Of a stretch of DNA of 64,000 nucleotides, positions 27,852-39,480 are shown piece after piece; the stretch's first letter is position 1, and each line of letters begins with the position of its first letter. Location: NCBI RefSeq assembly GCF_945957465.1, contig NZ_CAMFLC010000005.1, positions 1-64,000 on the forward strand, in the 5' to 3' direction. Below the pieces are notes generated by a model. It did not search any database, was not told the origin of the DNA, and was given only the letters and a program-made list of their open reading frames with translations. The DNA is from an uncultured Leifsonia sp. (GTDB lineage Bacteria > Actinomycetota > Actinomycetes > Actinomycetales > Microbacteriaceae). Position numbers and translations under genes: made by a program.

Positions 27852-28774
27852 GTTCGGGTGCGCTCGTCGTCGGCGAGGCCCTCATCGATGAAGTCGTCGG
27901 ACGCGACGGCGTCCGCCGTCACCCCGGTGGGTCGCCTGCGAACGTCGCGCTCGGTCTCGCGCGCCTCCACGTGGCCACCCGATTGCACACCGCGATCGGC
28001 GACGATGAGGACGGCCGGCTGATCCGCCGCGAACTCGCTGCTTCGGGCGCGATCGTCACCGCGGAATCCGAGACGGACGCACCCACGTCGAAAGCGGTGG
28101 CCGTGCTCGGCGCCGACGGTTCCGCGACCTACGAGTTCTCCGTTCGCTGGGCTCCCGGCGAACTCGATGATCTCCTGGACCCGCGCATCATCCACACCGG
28201 GTCTCTCGGCGCTTTCCTGGAGCCCGGGTCCGCTCTCGTCCGTGACATCGTCCGCCGGGGGAGGGCCGGCGGAGCGGTGATCACGTTCGACCCGAACGTG
28301 CGGCCATCCCTGGTCCCGCCTCCCGACGTCTCCCGCGTCCTGTTCGAGTCGATCGCGTTCTCCAGCCGGCTCACGAAGCTCAGCGATGAAGATGCGGAGT
28401 TCCTCTATCCGGGTCAGTCGGTCCACCGAGTCCTCGACACTCTCGTCGGCGCTGGCGTGGCGGTGGCCGCGATCACTCGAGGGAGCGAGGGCGCCGTTCT
28501 CGCCAGTGGCGAGCATCGCGTCGAGGTGCCGACGGTCCCGACCGAGGTCGCCGACACCGTCGGCGCCGGCGACTCGTTCATGGCGGCCCTCATCTGGGCG
28601 CTGGCCTTCGCAGTCGGCTCGTGGGACGGCGGAACGATCGAACCGAGCCGCCTGGAGGAGGTCGGGCGAACCGCGGCACGCGCAGCGGCGATCACGGTGT
28701 CGCGTCCCGGAGCCGACCTCCCCGTCCTGACGGAGCTCGCCCACTCGAACAGGAGGATCCATGCCCGCTCGTAA
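27848..28774 (+). CDS. PfkB-family sugar kinase, probable fructokinase (1)
   Basis: The 308-aa ribokinase-like protein has the N-terminal GEALIDEVVGRDGVRRHPGGSPANVALGLARL signature (PfkB motif 1) and the C-terminal DTVGAGDSFMAALIWAL with the catalytic Asp and anion hole (motif 2). It should phosphorylate fructose at the expense of ATP. The GTG start overlaps the GH32 stop and the 3' end overlaps the GH91 gene by 14 bp, so the three are tightly co-translated. A paralogue with the same organisation is at 34480-35418. Confidence 0.88.
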   Translation: MSSGALVVGEALIDEVVGRDGVRRHPGGSPANVALGLARLHVATRLHTAIGDDEDGRLIRRELAASGAIVTAESETDAPTSKAVAVLGADGSATYEFSVRWAPGELDDLLDPRIIHTGSLGAFLEPGSALVRDIVRRGRAGGAVITFDPNVRPSLVPPPDVSRVLFESIAFSSRLTKLSDEDAEFLYPGQSVHRVLDTLVGAGVAVAAITRGSEGAVLASGEHRVEVPTVPTEVADTVGAGDSFMAALIWALAFAVGSWDGGTIEPSRLEEVGRTAARAAAITVSRPGADLPVLTELAHSNRRIHARS

Positions 28775-30095
28775 CCGTTACGACGTGACGGAATGGCCCG
28801 TCGGCGATCCGTCGACGGACATCGGCGAGGTCATCAACAGCATCATCGCCGACATCAAGGACCGGCAGGCGGTCACGCCCGATGGGGGGAGGCCGGGCGC
28901 GGTCATCTCCATCCCGCCCGGGGACTACCGCCTCCGAACCCAGGTGCTGATCGACATCAGCTTCCTGCGGATCGAAGGATCGGGCCACGGTTTCACCTCC
29001 TCCAGCATCCGGTTCAATGTGCCCGAAGCCGAGTGGCCCGACCTGCACGAGCTGTGGCCCGGCGGCAGTCGCATCCTCGTCGACCTCCCGGCAGGACCGG
29101 ATGCGGGGGAGTCCGCGCGCGCAGCGTTCCTCGTCGAACGCGAAGGAAGCCCGCGGATCAGCTCAGTCGAGTTCTCCGGCTTCTCGATCGACGGATTGCA
29201 CTTCGCAGCCGACGGTTCCGAACTCGAACCGGAGAACACCTACGCCAACGGAAAGACCGGCATCTACGTTGCGAGCGCGAACGACTCGTTCCGCTTCAAC
29301 GGCATGGGGTTCGTCTATCTCGAGCACGCCCTCACCGTCTGCAATGCGGACGCCCTGTCCATCCACGACAATTTCATCGCCGAATGCGGAAGCTGCATCG
29401 AGCTTCGCGGCTGGGGCCAGGCGTCGAAGGTCACCGACAACCTGATCGGTGCGGGCTTCGCCGGCCATTCGATCTATGCCGAGAACCACGGCGGCCTGCT
29501 GATCGCGGCGAACAACGTGTTCCCGCGGGGAGCGAGCAGCGTGGAGCTCAGCGGTGTCACACGTTCGAGCATCACGAACAACCGCCTGCACTCGTTCTAT
29601 CCCGGCATGGTGGTCCTGGCCGCGAACAGCTCGGAGAACCTCGTGGCGACCAACCACTTCCTCCGCGACCTCGAACCCTGGGCGCCATTCCAGCACGTGG
29701 ACAACGGGAAGGACGACGACTACGGGTTGCTGCGGATCGACGGGAGCAACAACTCGGTCATCGGCAACCACTTCTCCGAGGTCGTGGACGCGCACACGCT
29801 GCGTCCGGCCGGATCTCCGCCCGTCGTCGTCCGGCTCGTCTCCGGTCACGGCAACTACGTCGCGAACAACCACGCCGTCGGGCTGGACGTCGCCGCAACC
29901 TCAGGCGAATCGGCGTTCGCCGCTCAAGTGGAGGCGCTTCTGACGACCGGGGCATCAGGCGACCTGACGATCACTTCTGTGCTGGTCGAAGCCGGGTCCA
30001 CTCGGAACACCATCCTCGACTCGGGGACGGACGATCAGCTCAGCGTGGATCTCGCTGTGAACGCGGTCAGGGCGACTCCCGGCATCGGCGCGTAG
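28761..30095 (+). CDS. GH91 difructose-anhydride hydrolase-like enzyme (DFA-IIIase type)
   Basis: The 444-aa right-handed beta-helix protein is of the inulin fructotransferase/DFA hydrolase family. It starts RYDVTEWPVGDPSTDIGEVINSIIADIK and has the ordered family segments ISIPPGDYRLRTQVLIDIS, GSGHGFTSSSIRFN, LEHALTVCNADALSIHDNFIAECG. The last has Asp197 and Glu208 in the D-x10-E spacing of the catalytic pair. WHELWPGG-like (LHELWPGGSRILVDLP) and the longer C terminus resemble the cytoplasmic DFA-III hydrolases of Arthrobacter more than the secreted synthases. There is no signal peptide, and GGAGG precedes the ATG. It would open imported DFA to inulobiose. Confidence 0.85.
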   Translation: MPARNRYDVTEWPVGDPSTDIGEVINSIIADIKDRQAVTPDGGRPGAVISIPPGDYRLRTQVLIDISFLRIEGSGHGFTSSSIRFNVPEAEWPDLHELWPGGSRILVDLPAGPDAGESARAAFLVEREGSPRISSVEFSGFSIDGLHFAADGSELEPENTYANGKTGIYVASANDSFRFNGMGFVYLEHALTVCNADALSIHDNFIAECGSCIELRGWGQASKVTDNLIGAGFAGHSIYAENHGGLLIAANNVFPRGASSVELSGVTRSSITNNRLHSFYPGMVVLAANSSENLVATNHFLRDLEPWAPFQHVDNGKDDDYGLLRIDGSNNSVIGNHFSEVVDAHTLRPAGSPPVVVRLVSGHGNYVANNHAVGLDVAATSGESAFAAQVEALLTTGASGDLTITSVLVEAGSTRNTILDSGTDDQLSVDLAVNAVRATPGIGA

Positions 30096-30143: not shown

Positions 30144-32516
30144 CTAGGCGGGCGGATTCCAGTACTGGTTGGCGCCGCCCACGCAGTCGTAGAGCTGGAG
30201 CTGCGTGCCGTTCGTGGTGTCGCCGTACGGGACGTCGAGACAGCGACCCGAGGCCGCATTGACCAGCCCCTGATTCGCCCCACGCGTCCAGCGTTGGTTG
30301 CTCGTGCCGGTGCAGGCGGCCACGTCGACGAGCGTGTTGTTCGACGTTTGGCCCGGCGGCGCCTCCAAGCAGACGCCACCGGTGGTGACGGTACCGTCCG
30401 CGTTCATGGTCCAGGTCTGATTGCCATTGCCCAGACAGTCCCAGAGCTGGGCTCGTCCCGAAGCCACATCCCGGTCGAGGCACTTCGTCCCGTCGTTCCA
30501 GACGATCGCCCCGGTGGGCGGGTACGAGACGGTGGGTCCGACCCAGGCCTGGTTGGGCGACCCGACGCAATCGTAGATCTGAAGCGGCTGACCATTGGTG
30601 TAGTCACTGTAGTCGACGTCGAGGCAGCGACCTGAGAGCTCATTGACGATCGATCCGACGTTGCCGCGGCTCCACTTCTGGTTGTCCGCTCCCGAACACG
30701 CCGCCGTCTGCACGTGCGTGTGGTTGGCAGTCTCCCCGGGGATCGTCTGGAGGCACAGACCGTTCACGACGAGCGATCCGTCCGCTCCGAGGACCCAGGC
30801 CTGGTTGGACGCGCCCGTGCAGTCCCAGATCTGAACCGTTCCTGTCGGACCATCGTTGTCCACGCACTTCGTCGTCTCCGGATCGGTCGGCTGCGACCGA
30901 GCGGTTTGCCCGAGTGCGGCGACGATGGCGTTGCCGGGGGAGGTCCCTTCCCGAGAGGCCCGCCACGCCGATCGAAGGGGCGAGAACGACAGACTCGTCA
31001 ATTCCGCCGAACCGCCGGTGGCCGCCAACGACATTCCCAGATCGCCGGCCGCAGAAGCGAAGTCGACGTTGTCGCTGATCACGGCCCTGCCGTCGTCGCC
31101 GAACACCTCGAGCTGGCCATGATCGACGAGGATGTGGATGCTGACGGCGTCGCCGATCGGTGCCAGCGGGGTCGAGAACGTCGGGTGGGTGCTGCTCGCG
31201 GCGTTGTCGACGGTCAGTTGTTGCGTCGCGAGGTCGTAGGACACCGAGGCGTCGCTGGAGCCGTCGGTTCGCTGGTGGAGACCGAATGACACCGCGCTGG
31301 CTGACGACCCGGTCATGGAGAACGACGCCTGGAGCTCGTAGGTGTCACCCGACGTCGTGGCAAGCGGGTCGGAGGACGGGTCGGCGGTGATGGTGCGGGC
31401 TGACCATGACTGTGTGCTCTCCCGCAGCACGGAGATCTCGGAGATGGGATTCCGGGTCAGCCGGATTCCGTCGGCGAAGGTGCTCAGCCCGAGTTCGACG
31501 GGGAAGGACGCGTTGCCGGTCCAGGTCGCACCATGGTTGCTTCCCTGCCATCCCATCTGCACGACACGTGCCGACGGCAGCTGGTTGAACGTCTGCGAGG
31601 CGTACCAGGTTCCGCCGTAGCTGGTGTTTCCGGATTCCATGCTCAGCGGCGTGAGCGAGTCGGGAACGAACATCCCGGACGAGTCCAGCCGGCCCGTCAC
31701 GTACTGGCCACCCGCGTCCTGCAGCACCCACTTCTCCCGCGATGTGTCGCCATCGACCGGGAGCCGGTAGAGGTCGGGGCACTCCACGAACCACGAAGCC
31801 GCGTAATGGCCGGCCTTCGTCCAGGAGAGCAGGTTTGTCGATGTGTAGAAGCTGGCGCCTTGCGAGCCGGTGAAGTCGTAGAGCACCATCTCCCATCGAT
31901 TGCCTATGGGATCCCATTGCACCTTCGGGTCGCGGCTCTCGGTCGTGCCGGTGGAGACCACTTGGGCGCCCCCGTCGTACATCTGGAAGGTGCGCGCGCC
32001 ATCCACGCTGTACGCGATGCTGACTCCGTCGGTGCCGGTGAACAGCAGGATCGGGTCGTCTGAACCCGTCTTCAAGCCGGTCGCATTCGTCGTGTCGACC
32101 CAGGCGGAGCCCGACCAGAGCAGGCTCTGCGCTCCTCCCGGGTTCTGGACTCCCGGCTCCAGCGCGATGGGCTGTTCCGTCCAGTGGACCAGGTCGGTGC
32201 TGGTCGCGTGACCCCAGTGGATGTCGTTGTTCGCACCGAGCGAGTGGGGGTTGCTCTGGAAGAACAGGTGGTAGACGCCGCGGTAGTAGACGGGGCCGTT
32301 GATGTCGTTCATCCAGCCGTTCGGCGGACTGAAATGGAACTGCCCGCGATGCGGCTCCGTGTAGTCCGTCGCCTCGTAGGGGAACTCGGGATAGTCCGCC
32401 GCGTTGCCCGCGTGCGCCGGCCCCTCGACGGCGAGCGGCACCGACACCGCTCCGGCGGTCGCCGCCACGAGAGCGACCGCGGCCCAGGTGCGCGCAAGGC
32501 GCCTCCGCTCGCTCAC
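30144..32516 (-). CDS. Secreted GH32 fructanase with two ricin-type (CBM13) modules
   Basis: The 790-aa enzyme has an N-terminal export signal (basic SERRRLART, hydrophobic AAVALVAATAGAVSV, about 1-37), a GH32 propeller with Asp71 in GWMNDINGP, Asp196 in SRDPKV and Glu245 in ECPDLY, a beta-sandwich (about 390-525), then two ricin beta-trefoils (about 545-665 and 675-790) marked by repeated CLD...NQxW motifs. It should release fructose or short oligosaccharides from inulin or levan while the lectin modules hold polysaccharide. The GTG start overlaps the IFTase stop (GTGA), so the 1181-aa ORF in the track is an overextension. The RRRLA stretch is not a clear Tat motif. Confidence 0.92.
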   Translation of the reverse strand: MSERRRLARTWAAVALVAATAGAVSVPLAVEGPAHAGNAADYPEFPYEATDYTEPHRGQFHFSPPNGWMNDINGPVYYRGVYHLFFQSNPHSLGANNDIHWGHATSTDLVHWTEQPIALEPGVQNPGGAQSLLWSGSAWVDTTNATGLKTGSDDPILLFTGTDGVSIAYSVDGARTFQMYDGGAQVVSTGTTESRDPKVQWDPIGNRWEMVLYDFTGSQGASFYTSTNLLSWTKAGHYAASWFVECPDLYRLPVDGDTSREKWVLQDAGGQYVTGRLDSSGMFVPDSLTPLSMESGNTSYGGTWYASQTFNQLPSARVVQMGWQGSNHGATWTGNASFPVELGLSTFADGIRLTRNPISEISVLRESTQSWSARTITADPSSDPLATTSGDTYELQASFSMTGSSASAVSFGLHQRTDGSSDASVSYDLATQQLTVDNAASSTHPTFSTPLAPIGDAVSIHILVDHGQLEVFGDDGRAVISDNVDFASAAGDLGMSLAATGGSAELTSLSFSPLRSAWRASREGTSPGNAIVAALGQTARSQPTDPETTKCVDNDGPTGTVQIWDCTGASNQAWVLGADGSLVVNGLCLQTIPGETANHTHVQTAACSGADNQKWSRGNVGSIVNELSGRCLDVDYSDYTNGQPLQIYDCVGSPNQAWVGPTVSYPPTGAIVWNDGTKCLDRDVASGRAQLWDCLGNGNQTWTMNADGTVTTGGVCLEAPPGQTSNNTLVDVAACTGTSNQRWTRGANQGLVNAASGRCLDVPYGDTTNGTQLQLYDCVGGANQYWNPPA

Positions 32517-33715
32517 GGCGTCGCCCGGAAGCCGTAGCTGGTCGTGAACGGCTGGAACTGGGCGGACGTTCCGCTGTCCATGACATGTGTGTTCGTGCTG
32601 CTCGCGTCGAGCACGACGGTGTGGACAGAGACATTGGCGGTGAAGTGGTTCGCTGCGATGTAGTTGCTGTCTCCCGACTTCACGAGAACCATCGTTGGAG
32701 TCGCACCGCTGGGGGTGATCGAACCGGACGGCACGTTGTATGAGAAGTGGTTGGCGATGAGAGCGTTGTTGTCCCCGTTGAGCTGTACGAGCCCGAAGAG
32801 GTCGTCGAGTCCGTTGTTGTAGCCGGTGAGCGGGCCGAACGTCTCGGGCTGGCGGTAGAAGTGATTGCCGCTGATGAGGTTCTCCTTGCAGTTGCCGGCA
32901 AGGGTGACCACGCCGGGGTAGAAGGCGTGGAAGCGATTCGCTGTGACATTCGAGAGGGTGCAGCCGACGAAATGGATGGAGTCCTTGCCACGCGGGAAGA
33001 TGTTGTTGCCCGTCACCAGGAGGCCGAAATGCGACTCCGCGTAAATCGAGTAGCCGACGTACCCGGCGCCGATCAGGTTGTTGCTCACCTTGCTGGCCTG
33101 TCCGGAGCCGGTCAGCTCGATCGCGTTGCCGCACTCGGCGAGGAAGTTCTCGGTGACGCTGAGCGCGTCGGCGTCTTTCACGATCAACGCGTGCTCCAAG
33201 TAGACGAAGCCCATGTTCTCGACATGCGAGGAGTCGTTGGCGCTGTCGAAGCGGATGCCGACTTTTCCGTTCGTGTACGAGTTCTCGTTCGGCGTGAATG
33301 ACGCCCCGTCGAGGCAGAAGTTCTCGAACGTGACGCTGCTGAGCCGCGGATTGCCGCCGCGAGTGACGATGAACGCCTCGGACTGGCCGTCGGTGTTCTG
33401 GACGATCACATGGCTCGAACCCGGGTTGATCTCGTACCAGGTCGACGTGTCCGCGGTGTTGTAGCGGATGCTCAGCGACGTGAAGCCGTGCCCTGAGCCC
33501 CTGATCGTGAGATAGCTGATGTCCACCGTGACTCGCGTCTTGAGCGGATAGTCGCCCGGCGGGATGTAGATGACCGCGCCGGGCTTGGACGCCTGGGACG
33601 TCTGGTTCGCCTTGATGTCCGCGATCATGCTGTTGATGACGGCGCCGATGTCGTCGTAGCAGGTGACGCTGCTCCCCGGAATCGTCCAAGACGTCACATC
33701 GTAGACAGTGTTCAT
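32513..33715 (-). CDS. Inulin fructotransferase (GH91), mature-enzyme ORF without own signal
   Basis: The 400-aa beta-helix lyase-type enzyme turns inulin ends into difructose anhydride (DFA I or III not distinguishable). Family segments are VYDVTSW at the start, AVINSMIADIKANQTSQASKPGAVIYIPPGDY, GSGHGFTSLSIRYN and DADALSVTENFLAECGNAIEL, with Asp183/Glu194 in D-x10-E spacing. Known synthases are secreted; here the reading starts at ATG 33715 behind GAGAGGACGAAGA. The Tat signal is encoded in a separate ORF 42 bp upstream in the same frame, ended by TGA. As read, the enzyme would be cytoplasmic unless UGA is read through or the stop is recent. It is co-translated with the downstream GH32. Confidence 0.88.
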   Translation of the reverse strand: MNTVYDVTSWTIPGSSVTCYDDIGAVINSMIADIKANQTSQASKPGAVIYIPPGDYPLKTRVTVDISYLTIRGSGHGFTSLSIRYNTADTSTWYEINPGSSHVIVQNTDGQSEAFIVTRGGNPRLSSVTFENFCLDGASFTPNENSYTNGKVGIRFDSANDSSHVENMGFVYLEHALIVKDADALSVTENFLAECGNAIELTGSGQASKVSNNLIGAGYVGYSIYAESHFGLLVTGNNIFPRGKDSIHFVGCTLSNVTANRFHAFYPGVVTLAGNCKENLISGNHFYRQPETFGPLTGYNNGLDDLFGLVQLNGDNNALIANHFSYNVPSGSITPSGATPTMVLVKSGDSNYIAANHFTANVSVHTVVLDASSTNTHVMDSGTSAQFQPFTTSYGFRATP

Positions 33716-33757
33716 TCTTCGTCCTCTCGAATGCGTTGAATGCTGACGTGGAGCTGT

Positions 33758-33946
33758 TCAGAGCAGGCCGACGAGGAACCTGCGGTCACCGGTGGTGTCG
33801 GCAGGCGCCGGTTGTGGCGCCTCCGCCGGCTGAACGGCGGCGTCAGCCGGAGGGATCCGAATCCATCCGAGCTGCCCGACGATCGCCGAGGCTATGGCCG
33901 CGGTCAGCACGGTTCGACGGCTGATGAGCGTTCCTGACGCTTTCAT
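33758..33946 (-). CDS. 62-aa Tat signal-peptide ORF preceding inulin fructotransferase
   Basis: The ORF reads MKASGTLISRRTVLTAAIASAIVGQLGWI, with twin-arginine motif SRRTVL, a hydrophobic core and an ADAA cleavage site. A Pro/Ala-rich segment (VQPAEAPQPAPADTTGD) and RRFLVGLL before TGA follow. The start is set by AAAGGAGATCGC-ATG. In known IFTases such a signal plus linker is fused to the enzyme. Here the TGA and 14 further sense codons in the same frame separate it from the IFTase ATG. It may be a split or decayed precursor, a readthrough leader, or an independent exported peptide. Confidence 0.7.
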   Translation of the reverse strand: MKASGTLISRRTVLTAAIASAIVGQLGWIRIPPADAAVQPAEAPQPAPADTTGDRRFLVGLL

Positions 33947-33980
33947 GCGATCTCCTTTGGTCGCCGGTGTTCGACATGCT

Positions 33981-33996
33981 GCAAAACCGTTTTGGC
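33981..33996. promoter_or_regulatory. LacI-type operator (family 1)
   Basis: GCAAAACCGTTTTGGC is a near-palindrome matching the GCCAARACGTYTTGGC sites before the importer operon. It lies 35 bp upstream of the Tat-signal ORF start, where it could block the promoter of the signal ORF/IFTase/GH32 operon. Confidence 0.6.
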
Positions 33997-34096: not shown

Positions 34097-34113
34097 GCCA
34101 AAGATCTTTTGGC
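34097..34113. promoter_or_regulatory. LacI-type operator (family 1), distal
   Basis: GCCAAAGATCTTTTGGC is an inverted repeat with the same GCCAAA/TTTTGGC arms. A further half-site (GCCAAAA) lies near 34066. Together with the site at 33981 it brackets the divergent promoter region between the IFTase operon and tatA, about 115 bp apart, a spacing that would allow looping. Confidence 0.6.
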
Positions 34114-34215
34114 AGTTGACAGGGTGATTCCGCGACCCGTACGTTCGTGGCCACGGCACGGATGCGGCCGGCGATGGTGCGGATTCCCCATCGTTCAGCG
34201 AGGAAAGGGCGGCTC

Positions 34216-34404
34216 ATGTTGGCAAACCTCAGCGGCTGGCATCTGGTCGCCATCTTCGCCGTGGTGCTCCTCGTGTTCGGCGCGACACGACTGCCGGCCC
34301 TGGCCCGAGGGATCGGGCAATCGGTACGGATCCTCCGGTCCGAAGTCGCCGACGGGAAAGCCGATGCGCCTGACGTCGAGGCGGGCGACGGCGCACCGCG
34401 GTAG
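34216..34404 (+). CDS. tatA: TatA/TatE-type translocase subunit (copy 1)
   Basis: The 62-aa protein MLANLSGWHLVAIFAVVLLVFGATRLPALARGIGQSVRILRSEV has the TatA layout: a short periplasmic start, one membrane helix, the FGATRLP hinge and an amphipathic helix, then a short acidic tail. It forms the protein-conducting pore of the twin-arginine pathway. It is divergent from the Tat-signal/IFTase operon and shares the family-1 operators. It is nearly identical in its first 40 residues to the tatA at 39242. AGGAAAGGG precedes the ATG. Confidence 0.9.
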   Translation: MLANLSGWHLVAIFAVVLLVFGATRLPALARGIGQSVRILRSEVADGKADAPDVEAGDGAPR

Positions 34405-38182: not shown

Positions 38183-38938
38183 CTAGAGCACCCGCGCGGC
38201 CAGCCTGCGGTCGTGCAACAGCGCGACCGACCAGGCGAGGTAGTACAGCGCGATCAGTGGCCCGGCGAGCAGGAGCATGGAGATCACGTCGGCCGACGGC
38301 GTCACGATCGCGGTGAAGCCGAGGATGACGAGGAACGCGATCCGCCAGCCGCGCAGGATCGACGCTGCGGAGAGCATCCCGAGGAAGTTCAGCAGCACGA
38401 GGAAGACCGGCGAGACGAACGCGAAGCCGGCCGCGACGACGAGCTTCAGCACGAACTGGAAGTAGTCGTTGGCCTGGATGAACGACGAGGAGCCGTCCGC
38501 TGCGAACCCCGTGAGCAGGAGGACGATGTGCGGCACGATCAGCCAGCCGGCGCCGCAGCCGACAAGGAAGAGTGGGACGGCGGTGAAGAAGAAGCCGAAC
38601 CCGTACTTCAGCTCCCGGCGGCTGAGGGCCGGGACGAGGAAGGCCCAGACCTGGTACAGCCAGATCGGGCTGGACGCCACGATGCCGATCGCGAACGCCG
38701 CCTGCATCCGCAGGTCGAAGGCCCCGGTGATGGTGTCGAAGTTCAGCGCTGCGAGGCGATGCTGCGACGCTGCGGCCTCCGCGATCGGAGCCCGTAGCGC
38801 CGCGAGCACGAGTGGGCCGAGGAACCAGCCGCCGACCGTCCCGGCCAGGAGCGCCGCCGCGCCCCGTACCGCGCGCCGACGCAACTCCGCCATGTGGGCC
38901 GCCAGCGACATCCGCGCGGTGCGGTTCCCGCGGCTCAC
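38183..38938 (-). CDS. tatC: Twin-arginine translocase subunit TatC
   Basis: The 251-aa six-helix protein has the TatC hallmarks MSLAAHMAELRRRAVRGAAALLAGT, FLVPALSRRELKYGFGFFFTAVPLF and ASPIWLYQVWAFLVPAL. It is the receptor for twin-arginine signals. ATG/GTGA overlap with tatB shows co-translation. Actinobacteria usually keep one tatA-tatC set near unrelated housekeeping genes. This extra set lies amid fructan genes and under a sugar-type operator, so it is probably a substrate-dedicated second system. Confidence 0.94.
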   Translation of the reverse strand: MSRGNRTARMSLAAHMAELRRRAVRGAAALLAGTVGGWFLGPLVLAALRAPIAEAAASQHRLAALNFDTITGAFDLRMQAAFAIGIVASSPIWLYQVWAFLVPALSRRELKYGFGFFFTAVPLFLVGCGAGWLIVPHIVLLLTGFAADGSSSFIQANDYFQFVLKLVVAAGFAFVSPVFLVLLNFLGMLSAASILRGWRIAFLVILGFTAIVTPSADVISMLLLAGPLIALYYLAWSVALLHDRRLAARVL

Positions 38939-39231
38939 GGCGCGTCCGGGGCCGACCGCTCAAGGGAGCGGGAGGCGGGTTCGGGCTCGGGCTCGGCGAG
39001 GAGCGCCTCGCGGATGATCCGCCGCGGGTCGTACTGCCGCGGGTCGTATCGGCGCCAGTCGAGGTCGACCGAGTCGCCGACCTCTTCGCGCACCTGTTGC
39101 TGCACGTCGTCGGCGAGTCTCCGCAGCGAGCGCACGAACTGGCCGAGCTTGGCCGCGTAGCCTGGGAGCCGGGTCGGCCCGATCAGGAAGGCGGCGATCA
39201 CGCCGATCACGAGCAGTTTCTCGAAGCTCAT
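38935..39231 (-). CDS. tatB: TatB-like subunit
   Basis: The 98-aa protein MSFEKLLVIGVIAAFLIGPTRLPGYAAKLGQFVRSLRRLADDVQQQVREEVGD has one membrane helix, the GPTRLPGYA hinge and a long charged amphipathic helix, longer than TatA and typical of TatB. TatB sits next to TatC in the receptor complex. A repeated YDPRQYDPRR and a Glu/Pro-rich tail follow. The gene is 10 bp downstream of tatA and overlaps tatC. Confidence 0.87.
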   Translation of the reverse strand: MSFEKLLVIGVIAAFLIGPTRLPGYAAKLGQFVRSLRRLADDVQQQVREEVGDSVDLDWRRYDPRQYDPRRIIREALLAEPEPEPASRSLERSAPDAP

Positions 39232-39241
39232 GACAGCACGC

Positions 39242-39460
39242 TCACGGCCGGGCGGAGACCCCGTCGGAACCGGAGGTGGCGGCCGACTTCTCCACTGTGC
39301 CGCCGGCTTCTCCGTCCGACAGGTCGTGGACCTCCTTGCGGAAGATCCGGATCGACTGGCCGAGGCCCTTCGACAGAGCGGGCAGGCGCGTGGCGCCGAA
39401 CAACAGCAGCACCACCGCGAGGATCACCAGCAGGTGCCAGCCACCGAGATTAGCCAACAT
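39242..39460 (-). CDS. tatA: TatA subunit (copy 2)
   Basis: The 72-aa protein MLANLGGWHLLVILAVVLLLFGATRLPALSKGLGQSIRIFRKEVHDL has one membrane helix, the FGATRLP hinge and an amphipathic helix, then an acidic/Ser-rich tail. It heads the tatABC operon; GGAGATGACTC precedes the ATG. It closely resembles the tatA at 34216, which points to duplication within the island. The operators at 39481-39515 are 20-55 bp upstream. Confidence 0.92.
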   Translation of the reverse strand: MLANLGGWHLLVILAVVLLLFGATRLPALSKGLGQSIRIFRKEVHDLSDGEAGGTVEKSAATSGSDGVSARP

Positions 39461-39480
39461 GAGTCATCTCCTTTGACGGA

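Follow-up and report, generated by a model that had tools for sequence, protein, structure and literature searches.

A short upstream reading frame as a probable export escort for signal-less inulin fructotransferases of actinobacteria

Separate genes for a Tat signal and an inulin fructotransferase

The window analysed here is a 64,000-nucleotide stretch of DNA from an uncultured Leifsonia sp. (RefSeq assembly GCF_945957465.1, contig NZ_CAMFLC010000005.1, positions 1 to 64,000), in which a 62-codon open reading frame (ORF) directly precedes a gene for an inulin fructotransferase (IFTase). On the minus strand, a small ORF with a twin-arginine translocation (Tat) signal is followed after 42 nt by the IFTase gene, which in turn overlaps a GH32 gene. 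As a preliminary description of this DNA had stated, the small ORF consists of a Tat signal and a proline/alanine (Pro/Ala) linker and ends with TGA (ATG at 33946, beginning MKASGTLISRRTVLTAAIASAIVGQLGWIRIPPADAAVQPAEAPQPAPADTTGDRRFLVGLL; stop at 33760-33758), and the ATG of the IFTase gene (33715; stop at 32515-32513) stands 14 sense codons past that TGA, in the same frame and behind a ribosome-binding site. We propose that the small ORF probably encodes a dedicated Tat escort, or hitchhiker carrier, for the IFTase.

The IFTase is a GH91 protein with the IFTase C-terminal repeat (PF18835, E=5.8e-30, 103.3 bits against a Pfam cut-off of 30) and matches the Protein Data Bank (PDB) structures 9j4i and 2inu with E of about 1e-139 across 398 residues. 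Its N-terminus is MNTVYDVT, the open frame upstream of it extends for just 14 codons, and an export signal of its own is absent.

We gathered GH91 homologues from approximately 1,990 genome look-ups (one genome may count repeatedly) at the levels of genus, family, order, class and phylum, extended the collection to two additional families, Galbitalea soli and plasmids, and read the DNA upstream of each. A small Tat ORF was found immediately upstream of all 25 close signal-less actinobacterial IFTases, which come from at least five families (the window, L035 (Galbitalea, identical to L003), L036, L037, L038, L039, L004, L005, L052, L013, L014, L057, L058, L064, L065, L066, L071, L072, L073 (an Arthrobacter sp. 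StoSoilB13 plasmid), L077-L081 and L083). The first 19 small ORFs were located by the Tat motif alone, so the ending that they share was not selected for; six (L077-L081 and L083) were picked by the tail motif. At each of the 25 loci the carrier and cargo genes are adjacent and on the same strand, separated by 11-179 nt, and the small ORF stops at TGA, TAA or TAG. Counted from this stop to the matched enzyme start, the two genes are in frame at nine loci, offset by +1 at six and by +2 at ten, a chance-like distribution. Because only 9/25 loci are in frame, the same-frame relation in the window is not meaningful. In the closest relative, Galbitalea soli, the enzyme is 86% identical and the small ORF is out of frame.

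Galbitalea soli was also the sole locus returned by a related-locus search of genome contigs. Used as a lone query, the 62-residue peptide retrieved no convincing relative, since signal peptides carry little information, a difficulty that synteny with the IFTase overcame. A search of plasmid DNA with the escort region gave no match. The 1.35-Mb StoSoilB13 plasmid bears an escort, an IFTase and a difructose anhydride (DFA)-III hydrolase, and its gap of 179 nt between escort and enzyme is the largest observed.

The predicted escorts are 52-77 residues long. Each has an [ST]RRxxL-type Tat motif, a hydrophobic stretch, in most cases an Ala-x-Ala site, then a linker rich in Pro and Ala that differs in length, and a fixed tail; the arginine pair followed by a hydrophobic stretch is present in 25/25. 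All 25 terminate exactly in [VIL]G[LVM][LI]-COOH. When anchored at the right end, the tails follow the consensus [YHR]-R-x-[ILP]-[VIL]-G-[LVM]-[LI]-COOH, with glycine at position -3 in every escort and leucine as the last residue in 23. The final residues ahead of the stop are the best-conserved part of the small ORF. The ratio of nonsynonymous to synonymous substitution rates (dN/dS) was 0.15-0.6 in ten pairs of small ORFs, and the proportion of nonsynonymous differences (pN) over the last eight codons was 0-0.15 in nine of these; the exception was L057/L073, at 0.36. Escorts are easily overlooked, being very short and of low complexity outside the signal and the tail.

Specificity and history of the small ORF

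A chance screen covered 583 kb of related loci, with 6,515 open stretches of at least 45 residues. The ending [VIL]G[LVM][LI] occurred in 29 of these stretches, and the 25 in which a suitably spaced Tat motif was also present were exactly the small ORFs. Because these 583 kb hold no other combination of Tat motif and tail, the small ORF is not a product of chance. A hidden Markov model (HMM) of the escort matched the window peptide over its full length (E=1.2e-18), the only such match in the window genome, and gave one full-length match, adjoining the IFTase, in each of five escort genomes (E 4e-13 to 1e-18). No full-length match was obtained in two genomes with DFA hydrolases only or in one genome with a fused-signal enzyme.

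The small Tat ORF was not seen at the 43 DFA-III hydrolase loci tallied, and none further was found in the 20-kb regions of the 583-kb screen. The chains of the IFTases L059 and L082 themselves begin with a Tat signal (for example MTDPSRRMLVGAGAVGTLAAALSLGISPKAEAAEESKGGPFNSPN-TYDVT), and at these loci the small ORF is absent; L059 is the nearest to 9j4i and 2inu, enzymes that have been studied biochemically. An upstream small Tat ORF is likewise absent from the proteobacterial plasmid GH91 enzymes L074-L076. The preliminary description had left it to related loci to reveal either a fusion or the same split. Signal and enzyme are indeed split for the 25 signal-less IFTases and fused in L059 and L082, but the same-frame relation seen in the window is not general.

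In a tree of the enzymes, the escort state is present in both deep IFTase clades. One is nearest to structure 8hsn and likely forms DFA-I, and the other is the DFA-III-like clade that contains the window enzyme. The hydrolases form one group and the fused-signal enzymes another. The simplest reading of this unrooted tree would be that the escort is old in the group, was lost by the hydrolases and was replaced in the fused enzymes. An escort is apparently the commoner arrangement for actinobacterial IFTases, the textbook enzymes with their fused signal being exceptional. Residues common to escort-type enzymes and absent from the fused type are Q41, R61 and the loop N107-T-D-G110 (window IFTase numbering). 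These are candidate docking positions, offered as a lead only.

Neighbouring genes and Tat components

The features of the locus are listed in Table 1. A stretch identical to the ribosome-binding site of the window escort also precedes the GTG start of the Galbitalea escort. The GTG start of the GH32 gene overlaps the stop of the IFTase gene (GTGA), and the GH32 N-terminus, MSERRRLARTWAAVALVAATAGAVSVPLAVEGPAHAG, resembles a signal peptide.

Table 1. Coordinates of the escort, its proposed cargo and neighbouring genes in the window
Feature	Position	Strand	Remarks
Proposed IFTase escort, 62-residue small ORF	33758..33946	-	Tat signal (SRRTVL), Pro/Ala-rich linker and proposed C-terminal hook RRFLVGLL-COOH
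Escort ribosome-binding site accaaaggagatcgc ahead of the ATG, including AAAGGAG	33947..33961	-	Own, strong
Codons of the proposed hook, F-L-V-G-L-L, plus TGA	33758..33778	-	Consensus [YHR]-R-x-[ILP]-[VIL]-G-[LVM]-[LI]-stop; right-anchored counts, 25 homologues
GH91 IFTase, 400 residues, without signal peptide, proposed cargo	32513..33715	-	PF18835; PDB 9j4i, 2inu
GH32 fructan hydrolase with C-terminal ricin-B lectin domains (PF00652)	30144..32516	-	Pfam run on 30144-32549
DFA-III hydrolase paralogue, signal-less, without escort	28761..30095	+	Negative control within the window locus
TatA-like gene, divergent from the escort	34147..34404	+	PF02416, E=2.8e-12
Second TatC	38183-38938	-	
TatB-like gene	38935-39231	-	

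The inulin locus contains an extra Tat set of two TatA-like genes, one TatB-like gene and one TatC (34147-34404 on the plus strand; 38183-39231 and about 39302-39463 on the minus strand); the other TatC of this genome is on contig C9. The preliminary description had suggested that export seems to matter here, and the extra set nearby and the continuation of the operon into a GH32 gene with a signal-like N-terminus both support this. Five genomes (the window's, G069 (Galbitalea), G019, G006 and G016) have a TatA paralogue close to the IFTase. A dedicated Tat translocase as the general partner of the escort was considered and dropped, as only the window genome and G006 had a second TatC among ten genomes checked.

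Operator-like palindromes, GCCAAAAGATCTTTGGC and GCCAAAACGGTTTTGC, are found upstream of the window escort at 34097-34113 and 33981-33996, and the similar AAAACGGTTT precedes the Galbitalea escort. These sites may be targets of a LacI-type regulator.

Export model, alternatives and known systems

In the published inulin pathway, an extracellular IFTase acts before import and an intracellular hydrolase acts after it (PMC8605356); the intracellular location of DFA-III hydrolases is described in two papers (PMC8605356, PMC4640833). Because inulin is a polymer, and the pathway places the IFTase outside the cell and the hydrolase inside, a signal-less IFTase needs a carrier. We suggest that escort and IFTase are made separately from one operon and that the IFTase folds in the cytoplasm. 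Homologous IFTases are trimers (2inu). The last residues of the escort, with their free carboxyl end, would then bind the folded enzyme; a binding hook is suggested by a conserved motif that coincides exactly with the free C-terminus. Led by the escort's twin-arginine signal, the complex would pass through the Tat translocase, and a cut close to the Ala-x-Ala site would leave the IFTase outside together with a peptide of some 20-30 residues. We also lean, somewhat less firmly, towards a more specific form of this proposal, in which the escort is a minimal detachable Tat signal of 52-77 residues whose only conserved mature feature is an eight-residue C-terminal hook that recognises a GH91 enzyme in its folded state and takes it out of the cell in trans. 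If so, it would be, to our knowledge, the smallest natural Tat hitchhiker carrier.

Several observations limit the case for an escort. In an AlphaFold2 model of the read-through chain (TGA taken as Trp; three-row alignment, monomer only), the enzyme was folded and the escort part was undocked, with confidence values (pLDDT) of approximately 25-38. The Pfam TAT_signal model gave the window peptide 11.7 bits against a cut-off of 22.7 (E=0.27), so the grounds for calling it a Tat signal are the SRRxxL motif, the hydrophobic stretch and conservation. Apart from this weak match, the peptide had no Pfam family at E up to 1 and no NCBIfam match. A distant GH91 homologue, L067 (G640:C447:6947-8098; 35% identity), lacks both a fused signal and an escort, and in genome G005 the IFTase downstream of the escort is frameshifted. 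At this last locus (L012/L014, G005:C2:1065599-1066800) the escort looks intact and the IFTase has a TGA in its first reading frame; the enzyme gene is either a pseudogene or an assembly error.

The preliminary description had presented the IFTase as split from its signal by an in-frame UGA, which is wrong, since 25 loci have a separate small ORF with its own start. Two of its explanations followed from that view. A nonsense mutation or sequencing error could have broken an ancestral fusion, leaving the enzyme to re-initiate and stay in the cytoplasm; the shared frame and 42-nt gap in the window would fit, as would the fused signals of the classical Arthrobacter IFTases and of L059 and L082. 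We consider this very unlikely, because the two-ORF layout recurs at 25 loci with three stop codons and three relative frames (16/25 out of frame), and because the small ORF retains its own start and its exact C-terminus with dN/dS below 1. Programmed UGA readthrough, giving both exported and cytoplasmic enzyme, is scarcely conceivable: it draws on the in-frame UGA 14 sense codons before the ATG of the window enzyme, but it cannot occur in those relatives whose two ORFs are out of frame, the closest of them being Galbitalea soli, and the stop codon and the gap length vary across loci. The variation in stop codon, gap and frame, together with the dN/dS values, therefore rules out readthrough and recent nonsense mutation as a general explanation. 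A separate escort peptide, which had been named as a third option, is favoured by the comparison of the 25 loci.

Two further explanations accept the small ORF as a gene. It could be a regulatory leader or a SecM-type translation-arrest peptide that controls IFTase synthesis, and arrest peptides are likewise encoded upstream in short ORFs that have an export signal and are conserved at the C-terminal end (PMC10987492). We regard this as quite unlikely, as the tails end in [VIL]G[LVM][LI] in 25/25 with no RAPP- or RAGP-like motif near the C-terminus, Tat acts after folding and so gives no co-translational pull, and the gaps range from 11 to 179 nt. A leader would also leave unexplained how the signal-less enzyme leaves the cell and why the ORF is lost where the IFTase has a fused signal. 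It is also unlikely that the small ORF is an exported peptide with another job (a pheromone, an enzyme inhibitor or an extracellular cofactor) and that the IFTase exits otherwise. Signal cleavage would leave a peptide with a conserved end outside the cell, but the ORF occurs only with signal-less IFTases and not beside IFTases that bear a Tat signal themselves, a pattern that fits transport better.

An escort would explain a long-standing observation. Arthrobacter globiformis S14-3 has a DFA-I IFTase, cloned in 1995, that was found in the culture supernatant, and its gene lacks a signal peptide structure (Haraguchi, PMC5448860). Under our proposal, a small Tat ORF with the ending [VIL]G[LVM][LI] should lie just upstream of this gene; the proposal, if true, also answers how industrially used extracellular enzymes without signal peptides exit the cell. 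If the hook binds the folded enzyme, it would also provide a compact tag by which folded proteins could be exported via Tat in trans. A literature search combining difructose anhydride and twin-arginine found no paper, and an IFTase escort was absent from the literature searched, although this does not prove that none has been described.

The enzyme and its pathway are already known, and the escort is most likely a variant of the hitchhiker principle, in which a partner that bears the signal takes a protein without one through Tat, as in HybOC, PaoABC, MelC1/MelC2 and the gamma subunit of FAD-glucose dehydrogenase (PMC4273604, PMC2758597, PMC6719666). The classical DFA-III-forming IFTases (Arthrobacter sp. 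H65-7 and A. globiformis C11-1; structures 2inu and 9j4i) share the enzyme family and extracellular destination (PMC5448860), but carry a signal peptide of 32-40 residues in their own chain. Sec/YidC arrest peptides (SecM, ApdA and the RQH family) are also short upstream ORFs with conserved residues near the C-terminus (PMC10987492), whereas the escort has a different and exactly C-terminal motif, a Tat rather than a Sec signal, and an enzyme rather than export machinery encoded downstream. In E. coli HybO/HybC and PaoABC, a signal-bearing partner likewise carries signal-less subunits through Tat (PMC4273604); their carrier is itself a functional, folded subunit, whereas the escort amounts to hardly more than a free-standing signal peptide. 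The gamma subunit of Burkholderia cepacia FAD-glucose dehydrogenase is a small Tat hitchhiker required for secretion of the signal-less catalytic subunit (PMC6719666), but it is a helical protein of 168 residues, against 52-77 for the escorts. Streptomyces MelC1/MelC2 (tyrosinase and its helper) has the same arrangement of an upstream small Tat-signal gene and a signal-less enzyme that leaves as a complex (PMC2758597). MelC1 differs in also serving copper incorporation, whereas the escort matches no helper-protein family model and consists of a signal, a low-complexity linker and an eight-residue conserved tail, and its proposed cargo is a GH91 sugar enzyme.

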